NCBI GenBank assembly: GCA_943789375.1
Contig: CALSTX010000010.1
Span: 124,001-188,000 of the forward strand
From: an uncultured Opitutales bacterium
Lineage (GTDB): Bacteria > Verrucomicrobiota > Verrucomicrobiia > Opitutales > Seribacteraceae
Length of the DNA: 64,000 bases
Reading direction: 5' to 3'
The position numbers and the translations under genes are program-made. How positions within the stretch are numbered: the stretch's first letter is position 1; the number at the start of each line of letters is the position of its first letter. This document shows, in pieces, positions 18,701 through 36,681 of this stretch. A model generated the notes under the pieces. It made no database searches and was not told the origin of the DNA. It saw only the letters and a list, made by a program, of their open reading frames with translations.

Positions 18701-21700
18701 ACTTACATAATTACCACTGTTGTCCCAACCGAGGGCAAAAAAGCTAAAATTTCCCGGTTGTTGAGGAGACCACTGGAGGGTGTAATTTGTTGCTTCAGGG
18801 GATTCTGATGATGCCCGAAATAGTTTTTTACCTTCAGGTTTTCCATTAACATAGAATTGAACTCCAATGAAATTACCATCGGCATCACTGCCTTTAGCGA
18901 GCAGGGGAATGGTCGAGGTGGAAGTAATACTATCAAAAACTGGGTCCACCATTTCAACCGTCGGGTTTAGTGATCCTTCAAAATTATTCATGGTTATTAT
19001 TGTAGAAGATGATCCTACGACATTGGACCTTCGATCAAATGCTAGTACTGAAATTTCATGCGTTCCTTGGCCCGTTACCTGAGAGTTATAAAAATTGGAA
19101 TTATTTAATAAGTAGGTGTACCTACCGGTATTTAAAGTATTTCCTACACTAAAAGATGACATATAACCCACGAAGTCATTATCCACAAAGATTCCCATGA
19201 AAGAGACCGCAGAAATATTTTCTTTTACATCGACCACAACGGGTATCGTTGCACTGGAGCCAAAAGAAAAATTAAGCTCCGAAGAAGGAAAAAGAATTTG
19301 AACATCTGTCAGACTATTGGCAAGCTTACTGAGTTGTCGGTTTCGATGATAAATATCTCTTACATTATTTCCATCCAATGAGTTTTGATTTGAAGTAGTA
19401 AAAGCTAAACCTGCTTGCCCCTCTGCATCGCTACTAAAGAAAATATGCCTACCATCTCCACTAATAATCGGAAACCGATTACTCGGCATAGTCGAAGCCA
19501 TACTTGGTAGGTAGTTCACCGGAAAGCCAAAACTGCTCAAACTGACTCTTTCACTCTCATTGGTGTCAAGATCGAAGAGGTAAATGTCGTCCGTTTCATT
19601 GTCGGCAGGGACTATTAAGGAAGGTCGATTGCTTCCGGTTGAGTCTATGTTACTCGAAGTTAAAACTTCAGAGAAACCAAATATGGAGGGTGCTGGGGCA
19701 ATCACTGGTGTTGCTCGGGTAAAACCGGAACCACTAAAAAGCATATTACTTCTAGGAGTGATTAAGACAGAAGAGGGGTTATTGGTGGTAAATTTCCCTG
19801 TTAATGCAGAAAAAGTAAATGATGTGCTCCCGCTAGCATTATTTTCGATTTGTGGACCAGATAGTAGAGATTGCGGGAATGCCCACTGGGTTCTAATAAT
19901 ATTTGTAATGCGATCTCGAATATCGGTGAGTGAATCACCCGCTGTATACCCCACAGTGGTAAGCGCGGTTGTGGCATTAATGGCAAAATCAACCTCAATG
20001 GTTCGGTTTGTATCCGCAATGGTTAGGGTTGTATTTGCAAGACTTGCGGTGGATAAAATCTCTATACCAAAAGATTGTTCAAGGAAAACTTCACCTCGAG
20101 AACCAATATGGATTTTGGTCTGGTCAATTTTTGCATCAGGATAGCCATCTTGATCAATATCAACACCATCCCCTTGTATAGAAATTAAAGAGTCAAGGCC
20201 ACGGGCAGTAGCTACCGCTTCTTGATACCCTGCTCCATTGTTTACCATTTCAACCCGATGAACCAAAGCTCCTCCCGTACGATCGGCAATACTACCTGCC
20301 ACCTGCTCAAAACGAATTAAACCAGCTTCAAAACTTGTACCACCCCGAGGGTTATCCACACTGACAGTGGTAGTATCGAGGTCGTAGTTCTCACCTTCTG
20401 ATACCATAAGGATCGATGAAATTCTACCCAAAGTATCCACTTGGTAAGAAGCGATCGCACCACTTCCGTTTCCGGAAAAATCCTCAATTTTCAGAAAACC
20501 ATTTTGGTACCCTAGTCCGGGGTTTTGAATTTCTATTTCTCCTATACCACCAACTAAAATGGCGGTAGCGGTCGCCTGTTCCGTAGGGTTTGAGAAATAC
20601 ACCCTTCCATCCGACCGGGTCACATTACTATCTAAAAAGTTTGAGGATTTTGTGGCATACACAATAGTTCTTCCATCTTCACTGATTGAAGGCTCCCGAC
20701 TTGGCATATTTCCGCCAACCTCATTTTTTTCACTCACACGATTGAGAGGGATGTTTGTCTGTGAAAGCAACACATCTGTTGTCTTGACCCTGTAAATATC
20801 TCCTTCGGGGTGGGAAATAAATGCTGTAATCACCGCGGTATCTCTAGGAGCTGGAAAATTTGGATCAGGAATGACAGAAACGATGGGGTCAACATAATTG
20901 ATCCCGGGGTTTACGATCCTCACTCCAGATGATTGGATTTGACCGTAACTATTAATCCCGTTTGAAAGGGAAAGAATTGCCCCGCTGCCGGTGCCATTCG
21001 AATCTGTGACTACAATGGACGGGTTACCAAAATAACCCACACCACCACGGTCGACTCGGATGCTGGAAATTCCTTTAAGTAAAAGTAAGTTTGTGGCTTC
21101 CGAGCGAAAAACAATGGTTTCCCCATCTCCACTTATTTCAACCTGATCAGATGGACCACCCATTGCTTCTATATTACTGGCAAATAAACCAAGAAATGAA
21201 TCGCTTGGCCGGTTTACTCGAGCAAGGTAATTGTCTTCCAATCGGAGCAAGAAAACATCAGTTTCCCCGTTGGTATCAACATCATTGGTAAAATTTTGGT
21301 CTGATAAATCTGTAGCATCCGAAACAAAGACGACATTCGACGCATTGTCGTCTATCTTCGGGGTTTTGCTCGCTTTATTACCTTGCGTCAAGGATTTGAT
21401 CTGAGGATCCAATGGGTTGGTGAGATCCCATAAAAAGACCTGTCGCCCAGTGCTGCTATTTCCATTTGTGCTTAAATTTGTTGCGTCTGACTCAAAAACA
21501 ACGAAGTTTCCGTCTCTGTTAATATCAGGGTAAAAACTTCCTTCATTTGGCTCAGTTCCACCCAAGCCCTCAGCTCTTATGATCTGTTGGTTGTAAATTT
21601 TATAAAGAAAAATGTCTTCATGATCATTACCATCGCCAGGGATAAGATCATAAGCTTTCGAGTGGAATACGATTGTGGTACCATCTCCACTTATTCTAGG

Positions 21701-23170
21701 ACGAAGACTATCTCCGTTACCCCCGATATTTGGATTTAAAAAAGAACTAGATATGAGAGTGGAAGGACCACCCACAACAAGATCTTGATAGAAGATTTGT
21801 TGCACACCATTTTGATCCGTTTGTTCGTACACAACCAACCTACCATCTCTACTTGCATGAGGTCTTTCCGACATTCTTGCAGATTCGGTTACCAAGTTTG
21901 TTATTCCACTGTTTTCTGAAACAAGGGTAATGACCGGTGTATTATCTAATGGAAAATCTTGATTGGCAATCGTTACACCCAAATAATAATCGCCCTCTAA
22001 ATTATCCGGCAATTGCTGTATCCAATCCAAATGAATAGTTTCATTGGGTCTCAAGTTTGCTCCAAGACCATTTTCACCAACATCAAACTCTCTAAGAACA
22101 AAATCCTCACTACCCATGAAACTATCATCCTCTGATAGCAGGACTCTGGCAGTAAAATCACCGGTAAGCAAAGAAGTGCCGGTATGGCGAATCGTAAAAC
22201 TGATACGAACTGGATCAAGACCTCTGTAAGTACCCGTGTCTCCATAAAAACTATCCTGTTCGACAGCGAGCGTGACCACTCCGGGATCGACTATCACCGG
22301 AATTTCCATTCGGTTATCAGACCCTTCGGCGTCCTCGACTGTTTCATGGATGATTTGATCACCTGCGGCAAATGCAGGGTCAACCACAGCCTCAATTGAC
22401 CAAGCAGAATCAGGATTTGCATCACCGGGAAGACGAAGGGGTGGCATGGTTATTTGGGGGGTATCTGTTTCTGCTTCTAAAGAAGGCGTTAAACCTAGTG
22501 GGGTCGAAGGCAAGGTCACGCTCTCTTGATCAACAATGATTCCATTTTCTAATAATCTCACAACCAATGGGAAAAATACACCCTCTTGGGTTCTGACTGC
22601 TGCATCATTGCGTACCACCACCACTGGATAAATGTCAGATCCAGGTAAATAATCGTCAGATTGTGTACTTACTGCAGTTACTTGTAGGTTTGGGATCACT
22701 AAAGAAAAAGTGTGGGTAACTTGGTTATTTAACGGGTTGTTCTCAAGAGCCGCACCCTGAACCCGTATCGTCACAGACCAAAGTGCGGTTTCAGTCCATT
22801 TTTGGGCCTGATACCAAGGCATAAAAAAGATGACCTGCCGTGCAGTCGTTACATCATCATTATCGAGCTCTGGGTTTGGTGTAGCAGAAGTAAAGCCGTC
22901 CCAAGTTTGGATGTGAGTACTGATTATTTGACCATCCGGGTCTTTCAATTCTACGGTTGCAATAACCGTCTCACCGCCTGGAACATTGGTTGAATTTGCG
23001 TCTACATGAAAAACTCGACCCGTTATGGCAAAAGCTGAACCGACTAATACCTCAGCGGGTTGGGTACCGGTAAATTCGACAGACAAATCTGTAACCTGAG
23101 CACTCGCTTTTTGGCTCAAGCAAAAGAAACTTAAGACAGAGAATAGAAGCCATTTACACAACTTAATCAT
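12737..23170 (-). CDS. Giant exported protein: CARDB-like, PD40 propeller, Ig-like and GxGY repeats, aromatic C-terminus
   Basis: The frame opens at 23,185 (3,482 codons), but the ATG at 23,170 is preferred. It overlaps the upstream TGA as ATGA and leads into a clean signal peptide (MIKLCKWLLFSVLSFFC up to the KASA cleavage region). Numbering from 23,185: CARDB-like beta domains at about 30-430; PD40/TolB-like propeller blades at about 430-1290, each with an S-x-DG-x-x-I/V-V-F pattern; interleaved GxGY repeats; bacterial Ig-like domains (VNG-x-x-x pattern with FFALGWDNSGN-type strands) from about 1290 to 3050; a helical region at about 3075-3370 faintly like DUF4214; then the tryptophan-rich terminal module. 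Likely extracellular or surface-bound. Function unknown; the propeller and Ig domains suggest a scaffold or adhesin. The gene is intact, unlike its upstream neighbour. Confidence 0.85.
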   Translation of the reverse strand: MIKLCKWLLFSVLSFFCLSQKASAQVTDLSVEFTGTQPAEVLVGSAFAITGRVFHVDANSTNVPGGETVIATVELKDPDGQIISTHIQTWDGFTSATPNPELDNDDVTTARQVIFFMPWYQAQKWTETALWSVTIRVQGAALENNPLNNQVTHTFSLVIPNLQVTAVSTQSDDYLPGSDIYPVVVVRNDAAVRTQEGVFFPLVVRLLENGIIVDQESVTLPSTPLGLTPSLEAETDTPQITMPPLRLPGDANPDSAWSIEAVVDPAFAAGDQIIHETVEDAEGSDNRMEIPVIVDPGVVTLAVEQDSFYGDTGTYRGLDPVRISFTIRHTGTSLLTGDFTARVLLSEDDSFMGSEDFVLREFDVGENGLGANLRPNETIHLDWIQQLPDNLEGDYYLGVTIANQDFPLDNTPVITLVSENSGITNLVTESARMSERPHASRDGRLVVYEQTDQNGVQQIFYQDLVVGGPSTLISSSFLNPNIGGNGDSLRPRISGDGTTIVFHSKAYDLIPGDGNDHEDIFLYKIYNQQIIRAEGLGGTEPNEGSFYPDINRDGNFVVFESDATNLSTNGNSSTGRQVFLWDLTNPLDPQIKSLTQGNKASKTPKIDDNASNVVFVSDATDLSDQNFTNDVDTNGETDVFLLRLEDNYLARVNRPSDSFLGLFASNIEAMGGPSDQVEISGDGETIVFRSEATNLLLLKGISSIRVDRGGVGYFGNPSIVVTDSNGTGSGAILSLSNGINSYGQIQSSGVRIVNPGINYVDPIVSVIPDPNFPAPRDTAVITAFISHPEGDIYRVKTTDVLLSQTNIPLNRVSEKNEVGGNMPSREPSISEDGRTIVYATKSSNFLDSNVTRSDGRVYFSNPTEQATATAILVGGIGEIEIQNPGLGYQNGFLKIEDFSGNGSGAIASYQVDTLGRISSILMVSEGENYDLDTTTVSVDNPRGGTSFEAGLIRFEQVAGSIADRTGGALVHRVEMVNNGAGYQEAVATARGLDSLISIQGDGVDIDQDGYPDAKIDQTKIHIGSRGEVFLEQSFGIEILSTASLANTTLTIADTNRTIEVDFAINATTALTTVGYTAGDSLTDIRDRITNIIRTQWAFPQSLLSGPQIENNASGSTSFTFSALTGKFTTNNPSSVLITPRSNMLFSGSGFTRATPVIAPAPSIFGFSEVLTSSNIDSTGSNRPSLIVPADNETDDIYLFDLDTNESERVSLSSFGFPVNYLPSMASTMPSNRFPIISGDGRHIFFSSDAEGQAGLAFTTSNQNSLDGNNVRDIYHRNRQLSKLANSLTDVQILFPSSELNFSFGSSATIPVVVDVKENISAVSFMGIFVDNDFVGYMSSFSVGNTLNTGRYTYLLNNSNFYNSQVTGQGTHEISVLAFDRRSNVVGSSSTIITMNNFEGSLNPTVEMVDPVFDSITSTSTIPLLAKGSDADGNFIGVQFYVNGKPEGKKLFRASSESPEATNYTLQWSPQQPGNFSFFALGWDNSGNYVSSAIYNISSTTGSDPPAVEITKPFKTIDLNSSFIVLDSTTGSIIDVNLTEPIGSGYFTMPNVSVTGLGAGAKITPIVDWNVSSLDYGKVTKLTVASSGQGYDLLDTSIRVTPVVQSTKLGEEASISTYYELNASGDLQSTRYYIGTRFDGKLQTGSGYVTAPNFRPRTISTPGRLPLRPPSTGETTTSVLPLDVTLPAPPSYPAARISGGFNHSPLYLEANVSSQNANISEVRLSINGEVSEESVKTSPPYVFPVYLDDPMEYSIVVLVKDDNGNVSSSEPLTFDCREMVESSPIAFFEGPKEESLQVGSTMTLTAMASSESGINNVEFFLDAKSLGFAQKQNDSNFYSMVVDLTSMSEGAHEVSMVARDFLGNQVGSFPDSMTNIQSKLNKILKIRSASNVGLPNGSILAPKTSTLLGFQQGDLTSYEKGSIVNVFIKAESSATSELAEIKLFSNGTPVDFTGQNGTFESLMHDPQSTSHELGYYEFSFEANSTGIKNISVTLIDNYGNQNVIDETIQIQVIGNVGSTPSVINLTSPYKPQMGQVWQPGERDIDEYSVDEITSITLGSSIPIVAFAIDEDKDFETLRFFVDNIPLTDEIGIPLTVPFPDQHPFSTVWEANETGIFNFYAMGKDKTGNISMSNLSTVEVLPTFDQVPDKPYFSGNRKLALATASLTSDGKILNVNIIAGENGNGYISEPKVVFDNFGTGGSGASAIAKIDPLSKQVIEIEIVDHGNNYQIAPKIYLQGGFVDLVASGAHAVAEVIRLLGPPFDPPTAGIADTFVSFSGFGYSSAPNVTVVHPRGIEASLSAVMEPSPFFGQQVASLRIDNPGQNYNPINLNEITFSGGLGIESETFESTVNDPDGAIIKTEFVAAGGGFFWKFEDRALPPFKGEWNGPVPGEYHLFSIAHDNLGNISTSQKIVQNVVRPLAPLVSFAPLNVALATPVFTSSGSISNIILDYNGSGYNTVPQVFIDGDGEGASASAVINYETGEVVSVVILNSGTGYSDAQIYFIGGLEKGKNEPEVVLGETISLRASALDHDGQVVRLSLVIDGDKVNPKQADDILDPQFQPGSFQYNGSDPEYIVQYTPNSLGFIELMVEAVDDEGKSTYSNPLRYKITNGSVPIVEMVTPIPNSKWSIGYDQNRSIRLVANASDPDWAFNNDVNETSKINGVMFFANDRFAGEGQRIPFTSHYFFDWLPKSAGAYKINAYVVDSQGGFTYLDQIEDLPNVNTNRGNIAVSAPVEVEIIPRTDSKLPFVDLVYPSEDMQITSNSEIRLVAVASDPDDSVETIQLFVNGEAYGAEINTDKSNSFSAQSFGLNWGPLGKTGIFSLMVRAKDTSGNLSFSSPVFVSVSVGNDYSPIISLGPLSGSYQVGSIVSLSATGVDVANSSSGFGVIEEVRFFANGIQLGTPDFQFPYLQNWFPETRGTYELFAQVRDNENNVRVSPIELVEIKDFELITFDMTDVELEQQEGRYGVYDGSTISVSVSASGESTELSRLNNVTLYANGKVTGSMRSVPVFYGNGILQKISYTIDWNVDYTNYADKNGQVLLVAYSEDPEIFSNTQLINIFSPDPYNPASIATNLGISMDSSERAKFDTLVSQNNQDVQKAYSLYLQQLTSSSLLSQYIDIVAAHHITLGYFHNSYTSFIEGKAFIIPTSDQWLRNYIDLLLFSPEYQSAFGPVPYMVGAASRANSIDYGQNRRNFVRQCYQNKYSKETSLQQTIQGSSRMLSFWENYEDGYWELRGGRPDDSIDSPPRRDAMPIEQTGGDNNFSSGNLTVNEIVGYLGPESGHCAVDLIFNLAKEYSLEGGLPYIIGSEPYRESIYKIVVLLFILMEEEARSFSPSEIESLTTLSVDQAISKILIDYRYQLKFNQIINEATELNFDWKITDWFGHFFDLEYPWIFHAQIGWLYYSKATLDEGFWAYSEGLGWWWSNKPQFSIDAAIGKNHRYVFLSRENEWVALDFSASNGTKRYYSFSLNDYIDF
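12740..13030 (-). other. Tryptophan-rich C-terminal module, copy 1
   Basis: This encodes the last 95 or so residues of the second giant protein. Key residues are DWFGHFF, then YPWIFHAQIGWLYY, then GWWWSN and F, matching position by position the end of the first giant protein. A conserved terminal module on large secreted proteins usually marks sorting or surface attachment; here that is inference. Confidence 0.7.
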
Positions 23171-26100
23171 GGGCGGGTTAACCATTGGTTAGTATTAAAA
23201 TCATAAACTTTAGGGGGATTTTGACCAAGATCAAAATATTTCCATTTCTGGGAGTCACCTTGTTCTATAAAATAAGGAAACACATCTGGATTACTCCACC
23301 ACCAGTTACTGTATACAGCATCCCAAAACCAATAACCATGGGCATCATCTGCATACACATAAAGCCAACCGAGTTGAGAATGATAAACCCAGGAACTTCC
23401 TGTGGAATAGAACGAGCCAAACCAGTCTGAAGAAACCCACATGTTTTCCAAGTTCGTATCACTTGCAAAGGTTAGCCCATTATCAATCCAAATTGCACCT
23501 TGGGTCTCACTCGACTTTCCGCGCCCATCGGACAAAGAAAAAGTAAGTGAAAATTTCTGACCCATCAAGTTTGAGAGTTCATCAGCATCCTCAACAACGA
23601 GATTTCCTGTTGATAGAGATAGAAAGGAAATTCCATCCCCATCTGTGTCAACATTACCAGAAATTATTTCAATTTCCACAGGATCTCCATCATAGTCAAC
23701 CGAAGGGAAATTTTGCACTACTTGATTATGTAAACCATCAGCTTTGCGGAAAATAAATTTAAAGTCATCGGCTTGCGGGGCGAAAAGGTTTAGATCGTTC
23801 AATAAACTACTACTTTGCAAGAGTGAATCCGTTGTGAGCGTTCCCGCTAACGAAGTAACACTACCAACTGCAGTTGCCAACTCTTGGTAAACAGAAATTA
23901 CTTCCTGTTCGACCACCAACTGTTGTTTGGTTAATTCACTAAGCAATTCGCTGGATTCCAAGGATTGGCTTTTTAGGCTTTGGTGTAAGGCATCGGTTTT
24001 CTCTAAAATATCAATAAAAGCTTCCGCTTCATCTGAACTCAGCAAAGTACTATCTATTTCTTCTTCTATCAAAGTTTTCAGCATATCTTCCAATTGCTGA
24101 GGCTCATCTAATATATATATTGGCGAATCTTGGTTGAGGCCGAAAGCAATCTCTCTACTTAGGTTTAAGCTCGAGCTTCCCCGTTTGTAGTCCGATCCTA
24201 ATTTATACTCTAAGAATACCTCAGTTTGCTTAAACAAATTAGCAACCCTAGCGTTTTCAAGTAGCATTTTTCCAGCATTTTCGTCTTCTAGTACTGCTTC
24301 TTTGAGGGGATCGTATGCGGTAATATCTGAAACATTTAGTTCTAAAATTTCATTCAATTTTTCTAGAGATTCGCTTTTCGGGAGGCCCAAATCAATCATA
24401 CTTGAAATGAGCGTTGTTAAAGGCGTCACAACCGAAGCATTCGCATCTGCAGAAAAACTTCCTAGGAATACCGCTCCGGTGGAACCATCCACACCGCCTG
24501 AAACAATGATTCTACCTTCGCTTGAATCGAGAATGCTGTTATTATTTTCATCAAATCTTACAAACTCTTCTTCGGTGATCTTGAGGCTATACTTGCCGTT
24601 TTGGTCGGTAGTTGAAGGTATAGAAAGGTCAGAAATACCATCATTATCGCAGTCAAAAATTACATTAGCACCAACCAAATATCCATCAATTGCATTACCA
24701 CTTAAAGTAAAAGCAGGTGGAGAAACTCGAACGACCAGGGTTTCACTCGCTTGGTTTCCAGATTTATCCGTCACTTCCAATGCAACGCTGTAATCACCCT
24801 CGGCATTTACATCTATATTTTCAATACCACTTAGGTTTACATCATCGGTTAGATCACCATCGTAATTATCATTGGCACTGTAGATTGGCAGCAAAAACTC
24901 CTGGCCTATGGTCAAGATAAGTGGATTTTCAGAAATATTAATGGTGGGCGTTTCACTGTCTACTACATTTACTGTCCTAGTCGTCTCAGAAATATTGCCA
25001 GAAGAATCAACCGCTCTGTATGTAACAGGGTAAGTTCCGACCAAGTTTATATTAGGACTGCCAATAATTGAAACCGTTACAGTATCATTGGCATCTCTGT
25101 TGTCCTGTATATTATACCCTGGCTCTATCCATTCTTCATAAACATCATGCTTAAAAACGGGGCTAAACAAGGTGATGGTTGGACCGTATATGTCCTCAAC
25201 AATTATGGTTTGCGATATGATGGAAGATTTCTCACCAGAAGAGTCGAATGCTTGATAGCTAAGAGTATATGAACCCAAGGGAATGGTTTGATTGGCTTCT
25301 AAATAATTCGAGGACAGGGTTCCGTTAAAGTTAACTAACCGGGGTGACAGGGAACCTTCAAATCGAATAATTAAGTTACTTGGATTTGCAGGATCCCATT
25401 CACCATCTAACACATCCAGGGCAACCACATTGTGAGCAAATTCATAAGATCCTAAGCCATCAGGTATGGAGACTTCAGAGCTAAAATTATTATTAAAACC
25501 TATCGTTGGAGGAGAATCTTTAAGATAAAGGTTGGCACTGAAAATATTTTGGGTCAGGTATCCCGACCATAATTCCATGGGTTCTCCCTTTGAATGAGTA
25601 GCGTTTCCATCCGTATCTAGAAAGGCTGTTATTCTGTGATACTGATTTACCTGTAAATGGGGAAAATTGAAGGCATATGGCTTTGTATGGTTGTAGTCAT
25701 TAATTTCATCTACATTTGTAAAGCTGGCTTTCGCCGCATCCTGGGCAATATTTGCTTCATGTTTTAAATAGAGTGGAAAGTCTAAATGTTGAGGATTAAA
25801 AATTATACCTGATAAAGAAACTGTGGGATCCGAAGAGTTTGGGTTAAGCCCCATGACCAACTCATATCGATCGCTTAACCCGTCAAAGTCGGAGTCGGCG
25901 AGAAGAGGGTTTGTGTTTTGATCTTCGGTTTCGTTTCGGTCATCAATTCCGTCCCCATCTGTATCCCAAAGTAACGGATTTGTAAAAGTTACCATGGTTT
26001 CATTACCGTCATTTAAACCATCCATATCGGTATCGGATAAAAATGGGTGGGTTCCTAATTGATACTCATCCACATTGCTTAAGCCATCATTATCCTCATC

Positions 26101-29100
26101 ACTTGCCCACCAGGTATTATTCTGGTCAATAAAAGAACCGATATACAAATCCAACCATTTTTCTTTAGGTGATAATTCATTTCTTGGAGATGCTCGTACC
26201 AAAGTGCTCGCACTATAAACAACTCCATTCTTTGTAATATTTGCTTCAAGGGTTAGTGTGCCACCGCCAAGATTTAGCTTCAAAACAGCCCCACTCCCAT
26301 GGCCTTTCGGGTCATGAATGATAAATTCCGCATTTTGACTATATCCTGATCCTGAATTTGTTATATTTACATCCAATATTTCACCATAGCTGCCAACCAC
26401 TACACTTGCATTGAAATCGACCCCATTACCATTTAGTGAGACCCGAGATTCATTAGTATAACCTGTACCCCTTCCTAAAATTTGCACCTCTTCCACCCTC
26501 CCCCTTTTGAGAGTAGAAAATAAATTTAAATCCGCGGAACTTCCGGTTGCATTACTAAGAGTGGCCACATTGCTTTGGTTTACATCACTGTAATCTAAGC
26601 TGAAACTCCAGTTTGTATTATTGGTTTCAAAAGGAGCTCCAGTGACATCAAATCCAATGGCTGTAAAGGTAAAGTTTGCCTCCCCTACCCCTTGTATATT
26701 GATTGGCACTTCAACAAAATTCGTACCGTTTCCATCATTGGGTACGATGTAAAAAAGTCCACCAGTCGTGGAATCTAAAGAATCCAAGGTTCCCTGCCAT
26801 GACGAGGTTTCTGAGGAGGAATGCATGAAATCTTCGAAGAAGTCTATCCCGCTTAGAGATGAAGAGTAAGTAACGGTGAAGCGATCATTTGGATTAAAGC
26901 TTGTGGTGTTTTCATCATCGACAATCGTAAGGGTTAGGGAACCGTCTAATTGCCCAACAACTGTTAAATTTGGAACCGCAGAGCTGGTATTGCCTGGGAA
27001 TGGGTTGATTATAATCTGCGGCCTTTCTCCATTTTGAAAGCCTGCCCCAATCCCTTGAATCATTTTCAGTTCCTCCTGGTACTCCTGACTTGCGGTCACG
27101 GACCTCGAGGGTTTGGCCAAGGAGCGAGCCTGGGCAGACCAGACAAGAGTACTTCTGCCAATTCCTCGGTTATCCGTCTCCAGGATTAAGTCTGGCATTC
27201 CGGGAACATATAACACTTGGCTTACTTTTGTTGGATCCGCACTTGGCCTGAAGGTCGATTCCTGGAACAGCATATCTTCCATAAAAACGGCAACATTATA
27301 AAGACCTGGCTCTAAATCTGGGATCATGTAATAACCGGACTGGTCGGTGTAGGCAGTCATATTCCTTTCAGCTGGTTCATTCTCCGCCCAATTCATTCCC
27401 GGTAGCCCATCAGTTACTATAATCTCGGCTCCCATTGCGGGAAGGTGTTCCATACCTGCACCGAAACCGTAATACAGTTTCGATGGAAAACGCTCATCGA
27501 TATATAAGTCTATGTAATCAACCTCACCGGTGGCATCAAATTCATTCGCTCCGTTTAATCTGAAAAGAGAACTTTTATTGGAATCCATCATATTTAGAAG
27601 GTGTTGATTCCCAATTATTACTTCTGCAGTAGCATCATAAGAATCATGATAAGTATTAATAAGGTTCAACGATGGTTGTTCATCAAATAAACTCCTCCAG
27701 CGATGATCCTCAGCATCCTTTGCACTGGTATCAAAATAAGTACCATTTTGATCCAATTGTATTTTCGTTAACCGGGTAGTTGTAAAAGGTGTGGCGCTTG
27801 CCTGCACAAAACCCACCTGACCATCATTTGAGTCAGGTCGGTGAGAGCCATTAAAATCAAACGTTAAACTATCAATATCCCGGCTTTGGCTAAACTTTCC
27901 AAAAGATCTAACCTCTACATCAACAATTCGATCGCCCAGAAAGTCAGCATGGGTAGGAGAGCCAAATAGCCAGTCTTCATCCAAACCAGTTACATCTTTG
28001 GTAAGCAGCACCAACTCCGAAGAAATGGATAGCACATTATGAACCTCCCTGACACCAAATGTTGTTTCATAAGAATGATCCCATGACCAAGGTCTTTCCT
28101 GAAAGCCCTGCCCCGCACCCTGCGGTCTGAAGATTTGGTCATATTCCAAGTTTTTAAGCTCAGGGTCATCAAAAATAACCCGCACCATTTTCCCGTCTTC
28201 ATCAAAGATTGGGATGGCGTCCACTCCTGTGCCCGAACCAGTTAAATCCAGTTCATTAGCCGTATACATATCACCTCCGTCATCCACCACTATTTCCTGA
28301 ATTTCTCCATTCCTTACAAGCAATGTAAATTTGGCATCAAAAGCTTCCCAGTCTTCATACGGAAAACGGGCATAATCATTCACTAGGGCAAAATTAACCT
28401 TGGTACCTCCGCATTTTCGACTCTTGAAATTTACAGACATGTGAGCCGTCGCATTGTAATCAGACCGTAGGTCAAAAATCTGATCATGAAAAACAGATAT
28501 GTTTCCATCAGCCTCACACAAATGTTTGGCTAATTTTACATGCCTGCCCTCCCAGGCAGCTACCTTTTGGGAAGTTGTTTCTTCATCTACTAAAAAACTT
28601 TCATCCACTTCACCGGGGCAATTTTCTGGTGGATAGGAGGATCTTTCAATATGGCCACATTCAACCAGCTGGCCGTTTATGGTCTCTCTTATGTTGGTAC
28701 AGCGCCACACCCGGTTAATTATATCATCATACGGATAATACACATGGTGCTTGGGGGCAACCCCTCTCAAATAAGCAACCGGGTCCCGGTATCCCCGACC
28801 ACTCTCAGTTACGATAATTTTTTCGATTTTTCCATCTCTTATTTTAGCAACGGCATGAGCACGGTCCTCATTGCTATCAATCGCTTCCTCGGTTCGGGCA
28901 CGGTCCCATATTTCAACCCATGGGTGGGAGTGAGATGGTTTATCTGACTGGCCTCGGACCGCATGTTTTCCATCGGTGCATTTATCGCACGGTGGGATTT
29001 CATCCCAAAAGCCACCCAAGCGAACTGTAAAATTTGCATCTTCTTCGTCGGCAATCAGTGGAGTTGTGTGAGATAAAGCAGCCTTCGGTATATTGGTTGA

Positions 29101-31620
29101 GTTGGTATTAAAATAACTTCGACCACCAGCAAATACTTCAATTTTTGAAATATTGCCTTCATCCTCATCAAACTCAGTAATAAAAGCAACCGCCCCATTT
29201 CCTCCACCCCCTGATATTTGGATAGCAGGAAAATAAGCCATGTCACCTGCACCATTAGTAATAAATTTATAGCCCTTGCCTCCATCGACTACCACGATGG
29301 CAGTTTCACCCAGTGTGCCATTACTATCAACCGCAGATGCATTCAATTCTAAGACGGCAGGTCTAAAATCCCACCTGCTGCCATTTTCATCCATATGTTC
29401 AAGCAAGGTTTCCCGTTTTGGATAGCCACCAAAAACCAAAATTTCAATGGGCATGGAGTACCCATATCCTGGGTTATCCAAAACCACATGGGATATGGTT
29501 TTATTAAATTCTGTATGCGAATCATCGGTACGAGGCTCACCCGTGGCATTACGATCACTTTCCCAGTCATAAAATACATGCTCTCCCTGGGGGCCATTGG
29601 ATGAAACAACAAATATGTCTGCATCCAATATCATGTCTTTGTCAGGATCAAAAAAAGTAATAGCATCCCCTTCGAGTCCGACAATTTCAAAAGTGCCAGA
29701 CACATCGTTATATTTCTTAAAAGTAAAATTGTCGTCGTCAATAACTTCAAAGATTAGATACTTTTGATCTGATATAGCGGTTGCGTTACCTAAATAAAAA
29801 ATATCCCCAACTCGTACCTGTTTAGTAAACTGAGTACTTGTATTGCCAATCATCGTATCGTTCAGGTCGAAATTTGGGTTAGTGGAAGTGTAAGAAAAAT
29901 TACCCTCTATTTTTAACTTCGTTGTCGTTCTGAAAGCATGTTCTAAATCTCCGAAAACGGTATCAATCTCAACAAGGGAATCTTTAATTTTTTCTTCTTT
30001 GCCACTTATGGTTATATCAAGGCTATCAAGGTCCCCCCATGAGTCTTGCGTTAAAGTACGCTCAACCTGAGTTGGCCTAAAGCCTTTCCCGCTTATGCGG
30101 ACCGCAGCTTCAGTAAAACCCCCGTCTCCAAACCCTTGGCCTGAATTGACAATCCGAGCCGATGTATTTTTGTCTAAAAAGAAAAGAGAGAAGGCGGTTG
30201 ATTCTTCACCTGTAATCGGAGGATCGACAATTAAATCCGGTGGTTTTACATAACCAAAGAGACCATCAGGGGCAGCATAATTACCGCTTGAATCTATTTT
30301 AACATATTCTAAGGAAAGCCGGGATACATTGCGATCATCGGGAAGGCTAAATGTCGTCATGGTCTCCATTTCTTTGGTCCAAAGAATGCGATCAAGTTTT
30401 GATGCATTGAGTTCCGCAACCGCAAAGGCTTGTCCATAAACTCTCCATCCGGTGTTATCAAATCCATTGCGCCAAGTTGTGTCGGAATCCGGGCGAACCT
30501 TGTAGTATGACATAATCACGGCACTGCCAGAATCATAGGCCAATTTTCCATGATTTGGGGTCTCGGCATTATCAAAAGGATCAAGATCATCTGTTACATT
30601 CCCCTCCTGCCCAAATGAAAAGACAACATCTGGGGTTTCCTTGTACCCGTGCCCTCCCTGATCAATTTTTATGGTTCCGACAGCATCTACAACAGCTTCC
30701 AGTCTTGGGATTTGCTCCCTGCCAAGTTTTAAATCATACAAATAGGAGATTTCGGAAGCCGTTAAAGGTCTGTCATAAATAGTGAAGTCATCAATAGATC
30801 CCCGAAATGTGGAAGTTGCATTGGCCTCACTGGTTTCCATTCTTCCAATGGCCATGAAATTCATATTTTCAACATCCGCAAAAAAGGCACGCTGATCGCC
30901 CGAACTTGCAGCATCATAGGTTTTGGTTTCCGCCAGTTCTCCATCCACCCAGAACGCCGAGGTTGTATCGCCCACCACCAATACAATATGGTGCCAGTCA
31001 TCAGCAGTGGGATCCAGTAAACCATGGGTTACCTCCTGAAGGGCATAAAATTTTGAAACCTCCTGCCCATCGTTAAAAACCTCAAACTGTGGGTATCCAT
31101 TATCCCGTATCATCACCTTGAGATACGATGCATTGTCATCGGTATTGGTGGCTGAAAATACCGTAAGGTCCGCTTCTCCCGATTCGTCCCTACCGCTTGA
31201 TCTAACCCAAAAACTTATGGAGCCTTGAGAGTAACCAGCAAATTCCCGGGCATGAATACTTAAATCTAGGTAACTGTCGTTGTCATCCCAATAAACGGAG
31301 TGACCGTGCCCTTCGCCTGCAAAACTGTCTCCTAAATAACCTGGGTAATCACCTTCTGGACCATTCCCTGGATTCTCTGTGGAGCTACCACCAATTGAGT
31401 CTCCCTCCCCTGGACTATCAAATGGGAAGTCCGGGCCCACTCCCGAGGCATGATATTTATTACCTGAAATATCAAGAAAAGTGCGCCCAGCCAAATACTT
31501 CACTTTCCCATCGGAAAGGGCCTCGGCATACACCCGGACTTCGTCTATGGACCCGTTGAAGTCTGTACTCTGCAAGAGTGCCAGCAAGAAGGTCTTTCTG
31601 AAAAGCAACAGACTGGCCAT
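23167..31620 (-). CDS. Giant exoprotein, C-terminal fragment of the 4,500-codon gene (LamG, TSP3, DUF5011-like, aromatic end)
   Basis: This is a 2,817-codon ORF whose ATG directly follows an in-frame TAG; its first 19 codons read through a shifted stretch, so it is not an independent gene. Elements in order: end of a LamG domain (GSIDEVRVYAEAL, about 23-35); a second LamG (about 100-300); many GxGY repeats; a Cys-containing patch (about 877-1070); an SdrB/carboxypeptidase-regulatory-like domain (about 1400-1460); thrombospondin type 3-like Ca-binding repeats (about 1837-1925, DTDMDGLND, DTDGDGIDD, DSDFDGLSD); two DUF5011/HYR-like Ig domains (about 2140-2300); a cadherin-like segment; and the aromatic terminal module (about 2727-2812). 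Its TGA overlaps the ATG of the next giant gene. Confidence 0.82.
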   Translation of the reverse strand: MASLLLFRKTFLLALLQSTDFNGSIDEVRVYAEALSDGKVKYLAGRTFLDISGNKYHASGVGPDFPFDSPGEGDSIGGSSTENPGNGPEGDYPGYLGDSFAGEGHGHSVYWDDNDSYLDLSIHAREFAGYSQGSISFWVRSSGRDESGEADLTVFSATNTDDNASYLKVMIRDNGYPQFEVFNDGQEVSKFYALQEVTHGLLDPTADDWHHIVLVVGDTTSAFWVDGELAETKTYDAASSGDQRAFFADVENMNFMAIGRMETSEANATSTFRGSIDDFTIYDRPLTASEISYLYDLKLGREQIPRLEAVVDAVGTIKIDQGGHGYKETPDVVFSFGQEGNVTDDLDPFDNAETPNHGKLAYDSGSAVIMSYYKVRPDSDTTWRNGFDNTGWRVYGQAFAVAELNASKLDRILWTKEMETMTTFSLPDDRNVSRLSLEYVKIDSSGNYAAPDGLFGYVKPPDLIVDPPITGEESTAFSLFFLDKNTSARIVNSGQGFGDGGFTEAAVRISGKGFRPTQVERTLTQDSWGDLDSLDITISGKEEKIKDSLVEIDTVFGDLEHAFRTTTKLKIEGNFSYTSTNPNFDLNDTMIGNTSTQFTKQVRVGDIFYLGNATAISDQKYLIFEVIDDDNFTFKKYNDVSGTFEIVGLEGDAITFFDPDKDMILDADIFVVSSNGPQGEHVFYDWESDRNATGEPRTDDSHTEFNKTISHVVLDNPGYGYSMPIEILVFGGYPKRETLLEHMDENGSRWDFRPAVLELNASAVDSNGTLGETAIVVVDGGKGYKFITNGAGDMAYFPAIQISGGGGNGAVAFITEFDEDEGNISKIEVFAGGRSYFNTNSTNIPKAALSHTTPLIADEEDANFTVRLGGFWDEIPPCDKCTDGKHAVRGQSDKPSHSHPWVEIWDRARTEEAIDSNEDRAHAVAKIRDGKIEKIIVTESGRGYRDPVAYLRGVAPKHHVYYPYDDIINRVWRCTNIRETINGQLVECGHIERSSYPPENCPGEVDESFLVDEETTSQKVAAWEGRHVKLAKHLCEADGNISVFHDQIFDLRSDYNATAHMSVNFKSRKCGGTKVNFALVNDYARFPYEDWEAFDAKFTLLVRNGEIQEIVVDDGGDMYTANELDLTGSGTGVDAIPIFDEDGKMVRVIFDDPELKNLEYDQIFRPQGAGQGFQERPWSWDHSYETTFGVREVHNVLSISSELVLLTKDVTGLDEDWLFGSPTHADFLGDRIVDVEVRSFGKFSQSRDIDSLTFDFNGSHRPDSNDGQVGFVQASATPFTTTRLTKIQLDQNGTYFDTSAKDAEDHRWRSLFDEQPSLNLINTYHDSYDATAEVIIGNQHLLNMMDSNKSSLFRLNGANEFDATGEVDYIDLYIDERFPSKLYYGFGAGMEHLPAMGAEIIVTDGLPGMNWAENEPAERNMTAYTDQSGYYMIPDLEPGLYNVAVFMEDMLFQESTFRPSADPTKVSQVLYVPGMPDLILETDNRGIGRSTLVWSAQARSLAKPSRSVTASQEYQEELKMIQGIGAGFQNGERPQIIINPFPGNTSSAVPNLTVVGQLDGSLTLTIVDDENTTSFNPNDRFTVTYSSSLSGIDFFEDFMHSSSETSSWQGTLDSLDSTTGGLFYIVPNDGNGTNFVEVPINIQGVGEANFTFTAIGFDVTGAPFETNNTNWSFSLDYSDVNQSNVATLSNATGSSADLNLFSTLKRGRVEEVQILGRGTGYTNESRVSLNGNGVDFNASVVVGSYGEILDVNITNSGSGYSQNAEFIIHDPKGHGSGAVLKLNLGGGTLTLEANITKNGVVYSASTLVRASPRNELSPKEKWLDLYIGSFIDQNNTWWASDEDNDGLSNVDEYQLGTHPFLSDTDMDGLNDGNETMVTFTNPLLWDTDGDGIDDRNETEDQNTNPLLADSDFDGLSDRYELVMGLNPNSSDPTVSLSGIIFNPQHLDFPLYLKHEANIAQDAAKASFTNVDEINDYNHTKPYAFNFPHLQVNQYHRITAFLDTDGNATHSKGEPMELWSGYLTQNIFSANLYLKDSPPTIGFNNNFSSEVSIPDGLGSYEFAHNVVALDVLDGEWDPANPSNLIIRFEGSLSPRLVNFNGTLSSNYLEANQTIPLGSYTLSYQAFDSSGEKSSIISQTIIVEDIYGPTITLFSPVFKHDVYEEWIEPGYNIQDNRDANDTVTVSIIGSPNINLVGTYPVTYRAVDSSGNISETTRTVNVVDSETPTINISENPLILTIGQEFLLPIYSANDNYDGDLTDDVNLSGIENIDVNAEGDYSVALEVTDKSGNQASETLVVRVSPPAFTLSGNAIDGYLVGANVIFDCDNDGISDLSIPSTTDQNGKYSLKITEEEFVRFDENNNSILDSSEGRIIVSGGVDGSTGAVFLGSFSADANASVVTPLTTLISSMIDLGLPKSESLEKLNEILELNVSDITAYDPLKEAVLEDENAGKMLLENARVANLFKQTEVFLEYKLGSDYKRGSSSLNLSREIAFGLNQDSPIYILDEPQQLEDMLKTLIEEEIDSTLLSSDEAEAFIDILEKTDALHQSLKSQSLESSELLSELTKQQLVVEQEVISVYQELATAVGSVTSLAGTLTTDSLLQSSSLLNDLNLFAPQADDFKFIFRKADGLHNQVVQNFPSVDYDGDPVEIEIISGNVDTDGDGISFLSLSTGNLVVEDADELSNLMGQKFSLTFSLSDGRGKSSETQGAIWIDNGLTFASDTNLENMWVSSDWFGSFYSTGSSWVYHSQLGWLYVYADDAHGYWFWDAVYSNWWWSNPDVFPYFIEQGDSQKWKYFDLGQNPPKVYDFNTNQWLTRP
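23170..23445 (-). other. Tryptophan-rich C-terminal module, copy 2
   Basis: This encodes the terminal 90 or so residues of the first giant protein. Key residues are DWFGSFY, WVYHSQLGWLYVY, GYWFWD and WWWSNPDVFP, aligning with copy 1 at 12,740-13,030. Sharing between two otherwise different giant proteins argues for a common envelope role such as anchoring or export recognition. Confidence 0.7.
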
Positions 31621-33144
31621 CTAAGTAAAATTTTCCTTCGCCGATACACCATCATAAACAATCGCTATATGACTCCAGCCCTGATCATCCGCTTTTCTGG
31701 TAAGAAGCTGGTCATCAAAAGTAAAATTTTGATCTGTAAAATTAAAAGACAACAAGGAGCTTTCTCCACCTAAGTCAAAGCTATGATCACTATGATTGCG
31801 GCTTGAGCCAGAACGAAAGAGTAAAATTCGAGTCACGAGGAAGCTTCCTCGAAAGATTAATTTTGACCCTCCTCCTAATTCCAAATCTAACGCTCTCCCC
31901 TTTACTCCCCAGGTCGTATTGTTTTCAATACCAGTCATGCCCAAGTCCTGAGTGATATCAATATCTTCACCATCCCCCGAAAGTGGTTTATCATCCAGGG
32001 TTGTTCCGCTTTCTTCATCGAGGTCCCAATAATGGGCAAGGTTTTCAAGAATTTCTCGATTCCAGGCAGGGGATGCCTGATAGCGTGCATTATCCTTGTC
32101 ATCAAACAATGATTCATGCCGGTCAAATGTCCATCTCGCCAAAGGCTGTGAAGGATAATGAAGGACCGCCATGGTTGCGTTCGGTTCATAACCTGCACCC
32201 TGGTCATGTATCGTTATCTCCTTGTAAACCTTTTTGGAATCAGGGCCAACCGCATTGGGCGTGACCGTTACATTTGCGTCCTGGCCCGCCCCCCAGACCA
32301 CCACTTCGGGCAGGGGTTCGGATGCGGACCGGGTTTGCCAGGCATTACCAAGAAAGGCGAATGACATACACGGGGAAATGGTGCCGACCCCATCCACATA
32401 CGGAATGGCACTGGCATTGGGTTCATTGATGTAATCCTCCCATAAGCTGGAGCGAAAGATAGAAAGATTCGGCAGATTATCGCGATCATGACCACGACCT
32501 CCATATTGAAGATATAGGCCAGAGTCATCCTGGGTCGTGGGGTGAATATTTATCGCTGTCACATTTGTATCCTGCAACAAAGACTTCGCTCCCGGCCTCG
32601 AGACTAAGAGCAAATTATCAGGATCCCCGATTAACCCTTTTTGAAAATCCTCAATGGTTCCAACTTCATGACTCAGGTAATTCGCAAAAGCACTTCCCCC
32701 AGAGACATTCACATCGGGGCTTCCTATGTAGCCCGAGCCCCGGTCGTCCACAATCGGGGTGACCAGCATGTCCAACTTGATCCGGGATGCTTCATGTTGA
32801 GGGTGATCATAAAACGCTAAGGCATACTTTTGGGCTGTATTATCAAAGTTAAACCTGTGAACCTCCCCTTTCCTTACCGTCAAGTTGGGGGCTTTTACTC
32901 CATCAATTACGTAACTCAATGGATTGTTTTCACCTGTGGGTAAAAACCAGTCCCTTTCATTTCCTGAAATACTCACTTCATGCTCAATAACTTTTGCGGG
33001 CGAGACAAGAACCCGAGCCCCCTGTACAAATTGCTTATCCGAGCGTACAACCCCTGATATCGAAGATTTATTTGAGTTTTGGTAGTCGCCGACCGTGAAG
33101 ACTATATTTTTCGACGAAATGCCCCCTTTCAGATTAGACACCAC
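31621..33144 (-). CDS. Middle fragment of the giant gene: GxGY repeats and LamG domain
   Basis: A 507-codon ORF, but the GTG at 33,144 is not a real start. The same frame reads WFTNEEIESNPAVLNKPSI and so on upstream to about 33,258, where a one-base shift breaks it. It holds a beta-rich region, GxGY repeats (DRGSGYIGSPDVNVSGG, DQGAGYEPN), and from about residue 365 a LamG/concanavalin-like domain (YWDLDEESGTTLDD, GVKGRALDLELGGG). Inside that domain the stretch 31,864-31,792 is out of frame: the annotated frame gives an Arg/Leu-rich run, the other frame gives a normal LamG strand. The in-frame TAG at 31,621 ends it. Sequons N-x-S/T are frequent, about eleven in the in-frame part. Confidence 0.75.
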   Translation of the reverse strand: MVSNLKGGISSKNIVFTVGDYQNSNKSSISGVVRSDKQFVQGARVLVSPAKVIEHEVSISGNERDWFLPTGENNPLSYVIDGVKAPNLTVRKGEVHRFNFDNTAQKYALAFYDHPQHEASRIKLDMLVTPIVDDRGSGYIGSPDVNVSGGSAFANYLSHEVGTIEDFQKGLIGDPDNLLLVSRPGAKSLLQDTNVTAINIHPTTQDDSGLYLQYGGRGHDRDNLPNLSIFRSSLWEDYINEPNASAIPYVDGVGTISPCMSFAFLGNAWQTRSASEPLPEVVVWGAGQDANVTVTPNAVGPDSKKVYKEITIHDQGAGYEPNATMAVLHYPSQPLARWTFDRHESLFDDKDNARYQASPAWNREILENLAHYWDLDEESGTTLDDKPLSGDGEDIDITQDLGMTGIENNTTWGVKGRALDLELGGGSKLIFRGSFLVTRILLFRSGSSRNHSDHSFDLGGESSLLSFNFTDQNFTFDDQLLTRKADDQGWSHIAIVYDGVSAKENFT

Positions 33145-33263
33145 GGCTCTTACGATGTGGTGCCCTGCTTTTTCAAAGACCTTGGTGATACTCGGTTTGT
33201 TTAAGACGGCGGGATTCGATTCAATTTCTTCGTTTGTAAACCACCCAAAACCGATAATCTTTC

Positions 33264-33642
33264 ATGGTTTTGTTGTCGTCCAAATCAAGAACCACCGAGA
33301 TTTCTACAATCTCCCCAATATCAGGGGTTCGCGTGCTGGTTGTGAATGGAAAAATCGGGAACCGTCGAATTTCGATCCAAAGCCGTTTCAAAATTAACCG
33401 CTACATTTAAATATTCCATCGGTGGCGTCCCCCCCTTCCCTATTGGAGTTATGTGAACGCCTGAATCATAATCAGAAAAAGTGTGCCCTGGTAAAAGAAA
33501 GCAATCTGAAAAATCACCCGGTGTGTTAAGGGTCATATCCAGGAGGTTCTGCTCGACTTGAAAATTTGGGAAATCCTGGCCGATTTGAGCTATAAAGTGT
33601 CCATTGATGATCGGTAAGGCCATATTCCGTCGCCTTCCTCCG
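33264..33642 (-). pseudogene. Out-of-frame linker of the giant gene
   Basis: Two successive frames carry the link between the protease fragment and the LamG fragment. 33,640 to about 33,350 reads NMALPIINGHFIAQIGQDFP, then LLDMTLNTPGDFSD, LPGHTFSDYDSGVHI and YLNVAVNFETALDRN, typical of the beta domain after the catalytic part of M6-like secreted proteases. About 33,360 to 33,262 reads TSTRTPDIGEIVEISVVLDL and DDNKTM. Neither piece has its own start or function. Confidence 0.7.
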
Positions 33643-36600
33643 ATAGGAGATCCAATAGGAAGTTAATGCACTCTCCAGTTCATAAAGATCTGGCTCCAGT
33701 TTACCCCGGGGAGACAAAATGGACGCGGGCAACTCCATGCCCCTTAGCCCTCTTGGGCTTCGGGGGCTCAGATCCCTAAGCTCCACCTGAGTGTAGGAAC
33801 CGGTTCCAGTCGGCCGCTGTATCCATGTAGGGTCAATCACCATAAGGATTTGGTTGGCATCATCTAAAACCTCAATTTTAGGTTCTTCTGCATAGCCTCT
33901 TCCCCCCTTGGTAATCCAAAAAGATGGAGTTGAAGTAAAATCCAAACTTGCTTCCGCACCATCGCCACAACCATTAATCCTGATAGAAAAGTTTCCCTCA
34001 TAATAAATCTCACTCAAGGTTTCTTTATTGGAACTACCACTAGGAAATATAAGGTTAAATTCACCCAGTTTTAAAGAGTAGGGCCCGTGTTCATAGTCAT
34101 GCCTGTATAACCTGAAAGTGTTAGCTGGTAAGGTTTCATCTGTTTCTTTTAACTCAGTGGCATTTAGATCAGCCTGGGTAAAAATAAGCCCTGCGATATC
34201 ATTTCCTGCAGATTGTCCAAGATTAAAACCAAAGCCTCTATTTTGTTTCATCGATACCTTGGAGGGTATATTTAGCTCACCAGCAGATATGGGAGCCAAG
34301 TTTCCCATGATAGAATAGGGATTGGCGTAGGAATTAGTAACTCCTTCATCACTATTAGGCCGCTCGCTATGAGAGGTGTAAGTGTTTGCATGATGAAGAT
34401 TGAAGTTGTGACCCAATTCATGAGCTACCGTTTCAGCAAACATATCATTTTGCGGAGGTGCCTGTGCATGGGAACCGGCTTCTCCTAGGTAGCCCAATCC
34501 AATAGCACCAGCTGGGTTGGAGTAACTTGTGACTACCACCCATGAAACTGCCACTCTAGAAACAATAGGTGCCATCTCTGTACTTTCAACTCCATCTATT
34601 AATATCTTGGGGCTGCTGTGATAAAAAGCACCGGAATCCAAAATCTTTATCGCCTCTATTTTTCCGGATGATCCTACAACAGCTTCAGCTTTTGCGGGAA
34701 CAAAGTTTGGGTCAGGTAAACCAGTTTCAGAGTCAATATTACCTCCTTTAAATTGAATAGCTGGCGGAGAAAGAAAACCTTGGCCCGCACCTCCAGCTTG
34801 GACAATCACCGCAGCGACCCCATTAAATGCAGGTCCATAAAAATCCCATTCATCGCTGAGCGAAGCAGCGACTGCCAATGCATTTTCACTAAGGATGGAC
34901 AATTCATCTTCATATTCAACCTCATCAAATATCGAAAAATATTTACCACTACTGTCATAAAGATTACCCGATGAATCGCCATCCGTGATTCTACCCCTAC
35001 TGAACTTATCGTAATTCATGGTTACAGTGGGTGTAATCACCGCTTCAAGCTGAAAGGTACTGTCACTGTTTCGAAGGAAGTATTCTTTTACCTGATCCAT
35101 AGTTTCCTTGAGTTCAGTATGCGAAATAGGTTCATAACTATTTTGCTGAAATTCAGGATACAAAACATTTCCATCACGGTCCACTAGAGGAGCTGAATCT
35201 CCACTCGCTGAATAACCCTCATCCCTGAACCTTGCGGGAACGACAAGCACTTTCCTAAACCCATTAATCGTTCGAAAGTTATTTTCAGTTGTTCCACCAT
35301 CATCGTATTCAATGATGAATGGAAGCTCATAGCCGTCTTTTGCAATGGCAGCCCAACCAGCATCTATCTTATCCATCACCGCATAGGATTCATTGGTGCT
35401 GTTAGGTTCTCCCCCATTAGAAATTTCAGTAGCCTTCCAATTGGAATATCCGTCGGCTACTGTATCTCCGTTTAACCACTTCCAACTTCCTTTGCTTGCG
35501 TTGATCTCAACCGGCGTTGTCGAATTGGTCTCTGAGTTAAATGTTGTGCCATTTTCATCCTCATCATCGGTTGCCCCAATCCAGGCATAGGTCACATTTT
35601 GATCATTATCATCCGAGCCTGGTGGAGCATTAAAAAGAAGATTCTGGATGTAATTATTTTCAGCAGCAGAATTAATACAAACCAACCTGCCATTTTGAGC
35701 CTCGGCCTCGTCATTGGCTTTTTCCCATGTCATCGGAGTAAGCACTAAGTCATATCTTTTTTTCAGATTAACCGTGATCCCATTACTTCCTGCAATGACC
35801 GGATAACTTACAAAATTCTTTTGAACCTGAGCACGTCTTTCTGCGGATACTACTTGTTCTGCAAAAAAATACTTTTCAGCATCGTTAGCAAAAATTAATG
35901 GCTCACCGTTGAAAGAATAAAAAGATTCACCATTTTCTAAATCTGAAGACGAAAAGGGGTATTCGGAAAGGGCGAGGTCTTGCCCCATGGACACACCCCA
36001 AAAAACAAGGTCTTTTACATTATGAATATTTTTTCTTAAACCATAGGTATAAGCTTCAAATTCAATACCTCCTTCAAGTGAAACTTTTTTTTGATTTACA
36101 CACTCTGAATGGTCAGAGCCCTTACATTTATAAAAGCTTGAGAGGTTACCCTTGCCAAATTCCCAAGTCTCGAGGTGAGAGCGGATCGAAATAGGTAAAT
36201 TTTCTGTAACACTAGAATCAATGGCTAAAGAAAGAGCTTTTTGGGGATTCGTTTGGATTAAACTTTTAAAGACTGGTTTCCTTTTTCGGGCTAATTTTTC
36301 CCCCATCTTTAAAAAATGACTTATTTGCCTAGGATCATGCTCCGTACAATTATCATCCAATAAACATGAAAGTTTTTGATAGGATTTCAACCAATTTGCA
36401 AATTCACCTAGTAAAGTTTCATTGTAAACTTTTGTGGTAATCCCATGTGGTAGTTTATTTTGCCTAGAAATCAATACATTCTGTGAAGATTTCAAATCTT
36501 TCTCATCTTCAAAATTTTTTACATCAAGTTTTACATTTTCAGTTCTTTTTTGCGTTTCCTGAAGCAAAATAGATAACATACATGTAATAGATATTGTAAT

Positions 36601-36681
36601 GACACATGCCTGAAAAAAATACTTTCTAAGACCGAGTAAAACGCATAATTTTAAAAGGTAATTTTTAGTACTATTAATCAT
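33526..36681 (-). CDS. N-terminal fragment of the giant gene: C-type lectin domain plus HExxH metalloprotease
   Basis: A 1,051-codon ORF with an N-terminal hydrophobic segment (about residues 10-40) that could be an uncleaved signal or anchor. A C-type-lectin-like domain follows at about 307-460 (WEKANDEAEAQNGRLVCINS, WIGATDDED, WKWLNGD, GEPN, then PFIIEY). A metalloprotease domain of M6/M11 (gametolysin-like) type starts at about 477 (RKVLVVPARFRDEG), with zinc motif HELGHNFNLHH near 750 and a Met-turn YSIMGN. A GxGY-repeat pair is inserted between the first strand region and the zinc helix. The last 35 or so codons before the stop at 33,526 are out of frame; the true continuation is in another frame (INGHFIAQIGQDFP, LLDMTLNTPGDFSD) down to about 33,330. 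Confidence 0.82.
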   Translation of the reverse strand: MINSTKNYLLKLCVLLGLRKYFFQACVITISITCMLSILLQETQKRTENVKLDVKNFEDEKDLKSSQNVLISRQNKLPHGITTKVYNETLLGEFANWLKSYQKLSCLLDDNCTEHDPRQISHFLKMGEKLARKRKPVFKSLIQTNPQKALSLAIDSSVTENLPISIRSHLETWEFGKGNLSSFYKCKGSDHSECVNQKKVSLEGGIEFEAYTYGLRKNIHNVKDLVFWGVSMGQDLALSEYPFSSSDLENGESFYSFNGEPLIFANDAEKYFFAEQVVSAERRAQVQKNFVSYPVIAGSNGITVNLKKRYDLVLTPMTWEKANDEAEAQNGRLVCINSAAENNYIQNLLFNAPPGSDDNDQNVTYAWIGATDDEDENGTTFNSETNSTTPVEINASKGSWKWLNGDTVADGYSNWKATEISNGGEPNSTNESYAVMDKIDAGWAAIAKDGYELPFIIEYDDGGTTENNFRTINGFRKVLVVPARFRDEGYSASGDSAPLVDRDGNVLYPEFQQNSYEPISHTELKETMDQVKEYFLRNSDSTFQLEAVITPTVTMNYDKFSRGRITDGDSSGNLYDSSGKYFSIFDEVEYEDELSILSENALAVAASLSDEWDFYGPAFNGVAAVIVQAGGAGQGFLSPPAIQFKGGNIDSETGLPDPNFVPAKAEAVVGSSGKIEAIKILDSGAFYHSSPKILIDGVESTEMAPIVSRVAVSWVVVTSYSNPAGAIGLGYLGEAGSHAQAPPQNDMFAETVAHELGHNFNLHHANTYTSHSERPNSDEGVTNSYANPYSIMGNLAPISAGELNIPSKVSMKQNRGFGFNLGQSAGNDIAGLIFTQADLNATELKETDETLPANTFRLYRHDYEHGPYSLKLGEFNLIFPSGSSNKETLSEIYYEGNFSIRINGCGDGAEASLDFTSTPSFWITKGGRGYAEEPKIEVLDDANQILMVIDPTWIQRPTGTGSYTQVELRDLSPRSPRGLRGMELPASILSPRGKLEPDLYELESALTSYWISYRRKATEYGLTDHQWTLYSSNRPGFPKFSSRAEPPGYDP

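Follow-up and report, generated by a model that had tools for sequence, protein, structure and literature searches.

Three successive open reading frames (ORFs) on the minus strand of the window, a stretch of 64,000 nucleotides (G000:C10:124,001-188,000, where G000 is the host genome under study and C10 its contig), raise the question whether they represent three genes or the pieces of one giant gene, and whether such a gene would be broken in the organism or only in its assembly (2.73 Mb in 27 contigs). Positions refer to the window unless a contig or locus is named.

23,167-36,681, minus strand: giant gene, approximately 4,505 codons in the span, appearing as three ORFs (extent according to the G026 ortholog)
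33,526-36,681, minus strand: first ORF, 1,051 aa, N-terminal part (ORF list)
31,621-33,144, minus strand: second ORF, 507 aa, middle part, internal GTG start (ORF list)
23,167-31,620, minus strand: third ORF, 2,817 aa, C-terminal part, internal ATG start (ORF list)

The genome nearest to the host, G026 (about 82% identical over the contig), encodes the ortholog on its contig C54 as a single open frame of 4,474 aa which is colinear with the giant gene at 78% DNA identity. The G026 contig is colinear with positions 15,773-64,000 of the window in one alignment (78.7% identity). Compared with the family, the last ~28 codons of the first ORF (33,526-33,610) are out of frame, and in the relatives the match to the second ORF shares one open frame with the match to the first part.

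Two queries located on either side of the upstream cluster of breaks, P0001 and P0002, were used to search the genomes of the same genus. P0001 matched 24 of the 26 relatives, and in all 20 relatives matching both queries the two matches lay on the same contig in one open frame of up to 5,145 aa, several of these frames being also cut by contig ends. In the four genomes without a P0002 match (G008, G009, G012 and G021) the P0001 matches reach or nearly reach the contig end. The initial annotation had named homologs split at the same points as the finding that would speak against a single gene; these were looked for, and none of the 20 relatives with both matches is split at the break points of the host. 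The G002 ortholog is split elsewhere, near residue 440 (query residues 434-454), where its contig contains ambiguous bases. As the gene is undivided in close relatives, an artefact is the most likely origin of the split, and we assign a probability of about 0.93 to the reading that it arose in the assembly and that the organism has one intact gene.

The frame changes were called by a protein-to-DNA alignment that allows frame shifts, with the protein of the G026 ortholog as the reference. Phase tracking on the raw blastn alignment had been tried and was discarded as noisy, one-base gaps pairing up around ordinary indels, and the protein-guided alignment with controls was used in its place. It revealed seven frame changes in the giant gene, all within 33,612-31,567 (33,609-612, 33,341-344, 33,250-253, 31,832-836, 31,795-798, 31,643-647 and 31,567-570 based on G026). 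The proteins of six relatives place them as follows.

33,609-33,612, minus strand: frame change 1, one-base gain (six of six proteins)
33,338-33,344, minus strand: frame change 2, one-base gain (six of six)
33,250-33,253, minus strand: frame change 3, one-base gain, frame back afterwards (six of six)
31,832-31,878, minus strand: frame change 4, two-base gain or one-base loss, place varying with the relative (four of six)
31,789-31,798, minus strand: frame change 5, one-base gain (four of six)
31,634-31,647, minus strand: frame change 6, two-base gain or one-base loss (three of six)
31,561-31,570, minus strand: frame change 7, one-base gain, frame back afterwards (three of six)

The changes form two clusters, an upstream one of three (33,612-33,250), on the place of which the six proteins agree within three bases, and a downstream one of four (31,836-31,567), in the stretch of which one of the six proteins, that of G016, ended early. 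The starting frame is regained after each cluster. Five changes were modelled as one-base gains and two as two-base gains; since a gain of two bases has the same effect modulo 3 as a loss of one, the gene as a whole stays in frame. The frame changes at 31,832-31,795 create no stop themselves, and the 507-aa ORF reads through both. When five intact relatives were aligned with one another over the stretch of the breaks, none of the 20 alignments gave a frame change, nor did any of eight pieces covering the remainder of the giant gene when compared with G026. The intact orthologs and these clean controls agree with the proposal of the initial annotation that the three ORFs are one gene. Its seven small shifts were all recovered by the G026-guided alignment, its positions being correct to within ~35 bases of the aligned places, and its balance of five extra and two missing bases, which keeps the frame, agrees with the alignment modulo 3. 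Based on these comparisons of sequences, 23,167-36,681 on the minus strand can be regarded as confirmed to be one gene of approximately 4,500 codons.

Within the break region the 148 shifted codons showed a dN of 0.140 and a dS of 2.21 (dN/dS 0.063), compared with 0.118 and 2.12 (dN/dS 0.056) in the 678 unshifted codons. The share of differences falling on third positions was likewise similar (0.635 shifted, 0.661 unshifted; Fisher p 0.59), and the shifted share differed from one third (p 5e-11). An exception is the poorly conserved segment 31,643-31,567, in which 10 of the residues encoded by its 24 codons are identical and the third-position share is 0.28. The shifted codons are thus under the same overall constraint as their neighbours, which implies that the breaks are either artefactual or very recent; with dS above 2 and near saturation, a very recent real break looks the same as an error in this selection test.

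Frame breaks are not confined to the giant gene. The rpoB gene lies on C10 in two abutting pieces owing to one extra base at C10:213,672, with 99% amino-acid identity to G026, and a family search of the whole genome detected no other rpoB copy. Similarly, gyrA is present in two abutting pieces with one extra base at C10:202,413; the other gyrA match in the genome, which may be parC, is weaker and partial (231.6 bits) and lies on another contig in a 773-aa frame. The split pieces of both genes are loci L070-L073. A cell does not survive the loss of rpoB, and its indispensability means that C10 certainly contains false frame breaks. Furthermore, a second patch of 2.7 kb (C10:69,996-72,730) contains 17 breaks, which are spread over four adjacent genes encoded on both strands: a histidine-kinase-like gene, two pieces of an FGE-sulfatase-like gene and a PDZ/trypsin-like gene.

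Outside the giant gene, 56 and 123 ORFs of G026 were aligned to the host genome, the second set as well as the reverse test being limited to ORFs of at most 1,500 aa. The sets contained 21 and 6 frame changes, respectively, which together with the seven of the giant gene amounts to 34 frame changes over 180 genes. The changes at C10:47,260 and C10:182,369 lie near gene starts, may be start-site differences and were excluded as evidence. In the reverse test, 187 host ORFs compared with G026 gave 16 frame changes, of which eight mirror C10's own breaks or overlap its patches and the other eight are found at most ~32 codons from the start of an ORF, where the choice of start differs. Thus, the same method detected no clear internal frame break in G026 over these 187 ORFs. 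An in-frame TAG was observed in G026 at L075:14,304-14,306, where it splits an FGE-sulfatase-like gene in which the host has a sense codon.

The alignment treats 25 of the 28 breaks of the giant gene and the 56-ORF set as gained bases. The most crowded 2.1-kb stretch contains 11 of all 28 breaks, whereas 2,000 uniform scatters gave 3.6 on average and never more than 8; the giant gene's seven breaks taken alone are within the range reached by such scatters. The longest homopolymer near the breaks averaged 2.61 versus 2.97 at random places, and homopolymer slippage as the cause was thus unsupported. The excess of gains had suggested PacBio CLR as the platform, and this candidate was rejected because the CLR data in the accessible part of PMC5964698 show the opposite bias, with deletions outnumbering insertions. 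As gains dominate and homopolymers are not enriched, no platform was assigned.

Spurious pseudogenes caused by frameshifts, the number of which changes with assembler, platform and coverage, have been described in the accessible text of PMC11017572, and that of PMC12007338 reports gene-fragmenting errors of long-read assemblies, mainly deletions tied to homopolymers. As in the host contig, the cases covered in these parts of both papers concern conserved, constrained and even essential genes that are broken while relatives are intact, and the breaks cluster where the consensus is poor. However, these studies, as far as their accessible sections go, used isolates with reads or near-identical genomes, whereas the present comparison is based on the consensus sequence and a nearest genome that is about 82% identical. 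In contrast to the errors in the part of PMC12007338 considered here, gains dominate in the host contig and homopolymers are not enriched.

If the split is an assembly artefact, it would result from small indels, extra bases in most cases, that were left uncorrected in a patch of 2.1 kb with a poor consensus, and the same contig would carry at least one other such patch as well as scattered single sites. We infer low coverage or missed polishing as the sequencing cause. A misassembly caused by repeats was rejected since P0001 and P0002 have a single match each in the genome. Some observations speak against an error: the frame is regained after both clusters, whereas errors would do so by chance in about 1 of 9 cases, the shifted 24-codon segment 31,643-31,567 is poorly conserved, and the reference G026 is itself not flawless, carrying an in-frame stop codon in one gene. 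It nevertheless seems very unlikely that the gene is really broken in the population as a very recent pseudogene within an otherwise intact locus. The seven indels and the stops do stand in the deposited sequence, and with dS saturated no further sign of a very recent loss would be expected; however, a decaying gene does not collect seven independent indels in 2.1 kb while its remaining 11 kb stay free of them, and rpoB and gyrA, both needed by living cells, are broken on the same contig.

Even less probable is that the patch reflects a wrong join, or a consensus mixed with another strain or a damaged copy, instead of random base-calling error. Such an origin would fit the clustering of the breaks beyond the maximum of the uniform scatters (11 of 28 versus 8), but P0001 and P0002 match only themselves, so that the genome has no second copy of the region, and the identity to G026 is undiminished over most of the patch. 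That the ORFs are three separate genes, or are joined by programmed frameshift decoding with a real biological role, is the least credible of these explanations. Although each ORF has a possible start codon and the frame is regained after both clusters, none of the relatives shows a split at the same places, the seven shifts do not repeat in context and are not conserved, and the internal starts fall within the coding sequence of conserved domains; neither slippery sites nor a conserved split in relatives was seen. The artefactual split of one intact gene is therefore the reading on which the following description of its product is based.

The intact protein starts with a hydrophobic stretch, followed by a C-type lectin domain, a metalloprotease-like stretch, LamG and Ig-like domains and a tryptophan-rich tail.

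35,452-35,736, minus strand: C-type lectin domain (PF00059, 24.6 bits, cut-off 22.6)
34,306-34,554, minus strand: metalloprotease-like stretch (PF13688 Reprolysin_5, 25.5 bits, below the cut-off of 27)
30,745-31,284, minus strand: LamG domain (PF13385, 71.6 bits, cut-off 27.6)
24,724-24,930, minus strand: best of two Ig-like stretches (PF16403, 88.7 bits for the protein, cut-off 27)
23,170-23,454, minus strand: tryptophan-rich C-terminal domain of about 90 residues, unnamed in Pfam and NCBIfam

The domain labels of the initial annotation held in part: the C-type lectin is over its cut-off and LamG well over it, but the metalloprotease falls just below. Neither of the two profiles matching this stretch, PF13688 and PF13582 (21.6 bits, cut-off 22.4), exceeds its curated cut-off as would be expected for an M12-type (metzincin) metalloprotease. 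The zinc site motif of metzincins is HExxHxxGxxH; the stretch reads HELGHNFNLHH, with an asparagine at the position of the glycine. Judging from the position of the gene and from its domains, it probably encodes, when intact, an exported surface protein of giant size that appears to be linked to a pilus-type export locus.

36,805-40,323, minus strand: secretin gene directly upstream of the giant gene (PF00263, 116.8 bits, cut-off 27.5)
12,737-23,185, minus strand: second giant gene, 3,482 aa, overlapping the first giant gene by 19 bases

The best NCBIfam match of the upstream secretin is the Amuc_1098 family (NF042912, 347.6 bits), and a PilM-like gene is located further upstream. Among the 24 same-genus relatives matching P0001, 19 have a secretin match no more than ~1.1 kb upstream of the giant gene, on its strand and contig; the other five (G002, G004, G006, G007 and G019) have no secretin match on the contig of the giant gene. 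With its family match and the nearby PilM-like gene the host secretin resembles the type IV pilus secretin PilQ of Akkermansia muciniphila, Amuc_1098, as presented in the accessible part of PMC4960237, which does not mention a giant gene as a partner of that secretin. However, the host secretin scores well under the family cut-off of 750, which was exceeded in none of 43 genomes. The second giant gene has Ig-like and propeller-like matches and the same kind of tail as the first. A pilus-locus gene (41,957-42,817) lacks one base at ~41,970 in a run of six G and is shortened to 286 aa, compared with 376 aa in its G026 ortholog.

A search with a single tail sequence gave 30 matches in the host genome, and in 24 of the 28 that were fetched from outside the window (L081-L108) the protein ends at most 32 residues from the match. 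An alignment of 13 rows contains nine invariant columns, seven of which are tryptophan. The profile built from it found 37 matches in the host genome, at least three in each of the 42 family genomes searched, and any match in 14 of 50 other genomes of the order. Scanning seven tail copies against Pfam and NCBIfam yielded nothing near a cut-off, solved structures gave no match at an E value of 0.1, and a literature search returned no description of the tail, going by titles and the openings of abstracts. A structure model from a single sequence was poor (mean pLDDT 51). Identical tail sequences were observed on two contigs (L084 on G000:C1 and L085 on G000:C11), which may stem from a gene repeated in the genome or from duplication by the assembly at the end of a contig.

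Known C-terminal sorting domains include PEP-CTERM, GlyGly-CTERM and the type IX secretion tail. Like these, the tail is a short, conserved end domain on many differing large proteins of one genome; unlike them, it comprises about 90 residues, is rich in invariant tryptophans and has no match passing the cut-offs of Pfam and NCBIfam and none among the solved structures. From its sequence and placement it looks like a sorting or anchoring domain. A tentative reading, which may well prove wrong, is that the locus represents a new export and attachment system, in which a type IV pilus-type secretin is genetically paired throughout the genus with giant surface proteins bearing an undescribed tryptophan-rich sorting or anchoring tail, with dozens of carriers per genome in the family.

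The gene calls of C10 are consequently unreliable in patches: the assembly falsely divides rpoB, gyrA, the giant gene and a gene of the pilus locus, and fragments will enter protein databases that draw on this contig. The comparison recovers the unit as it really is, a single giant gene next to a secretin gene, which is a prerequisite for interpreting the locus. Of more interest than the split itself is the unnamed tail domain, which provides a concrete lead to a protein-sorting system in the group of the host.
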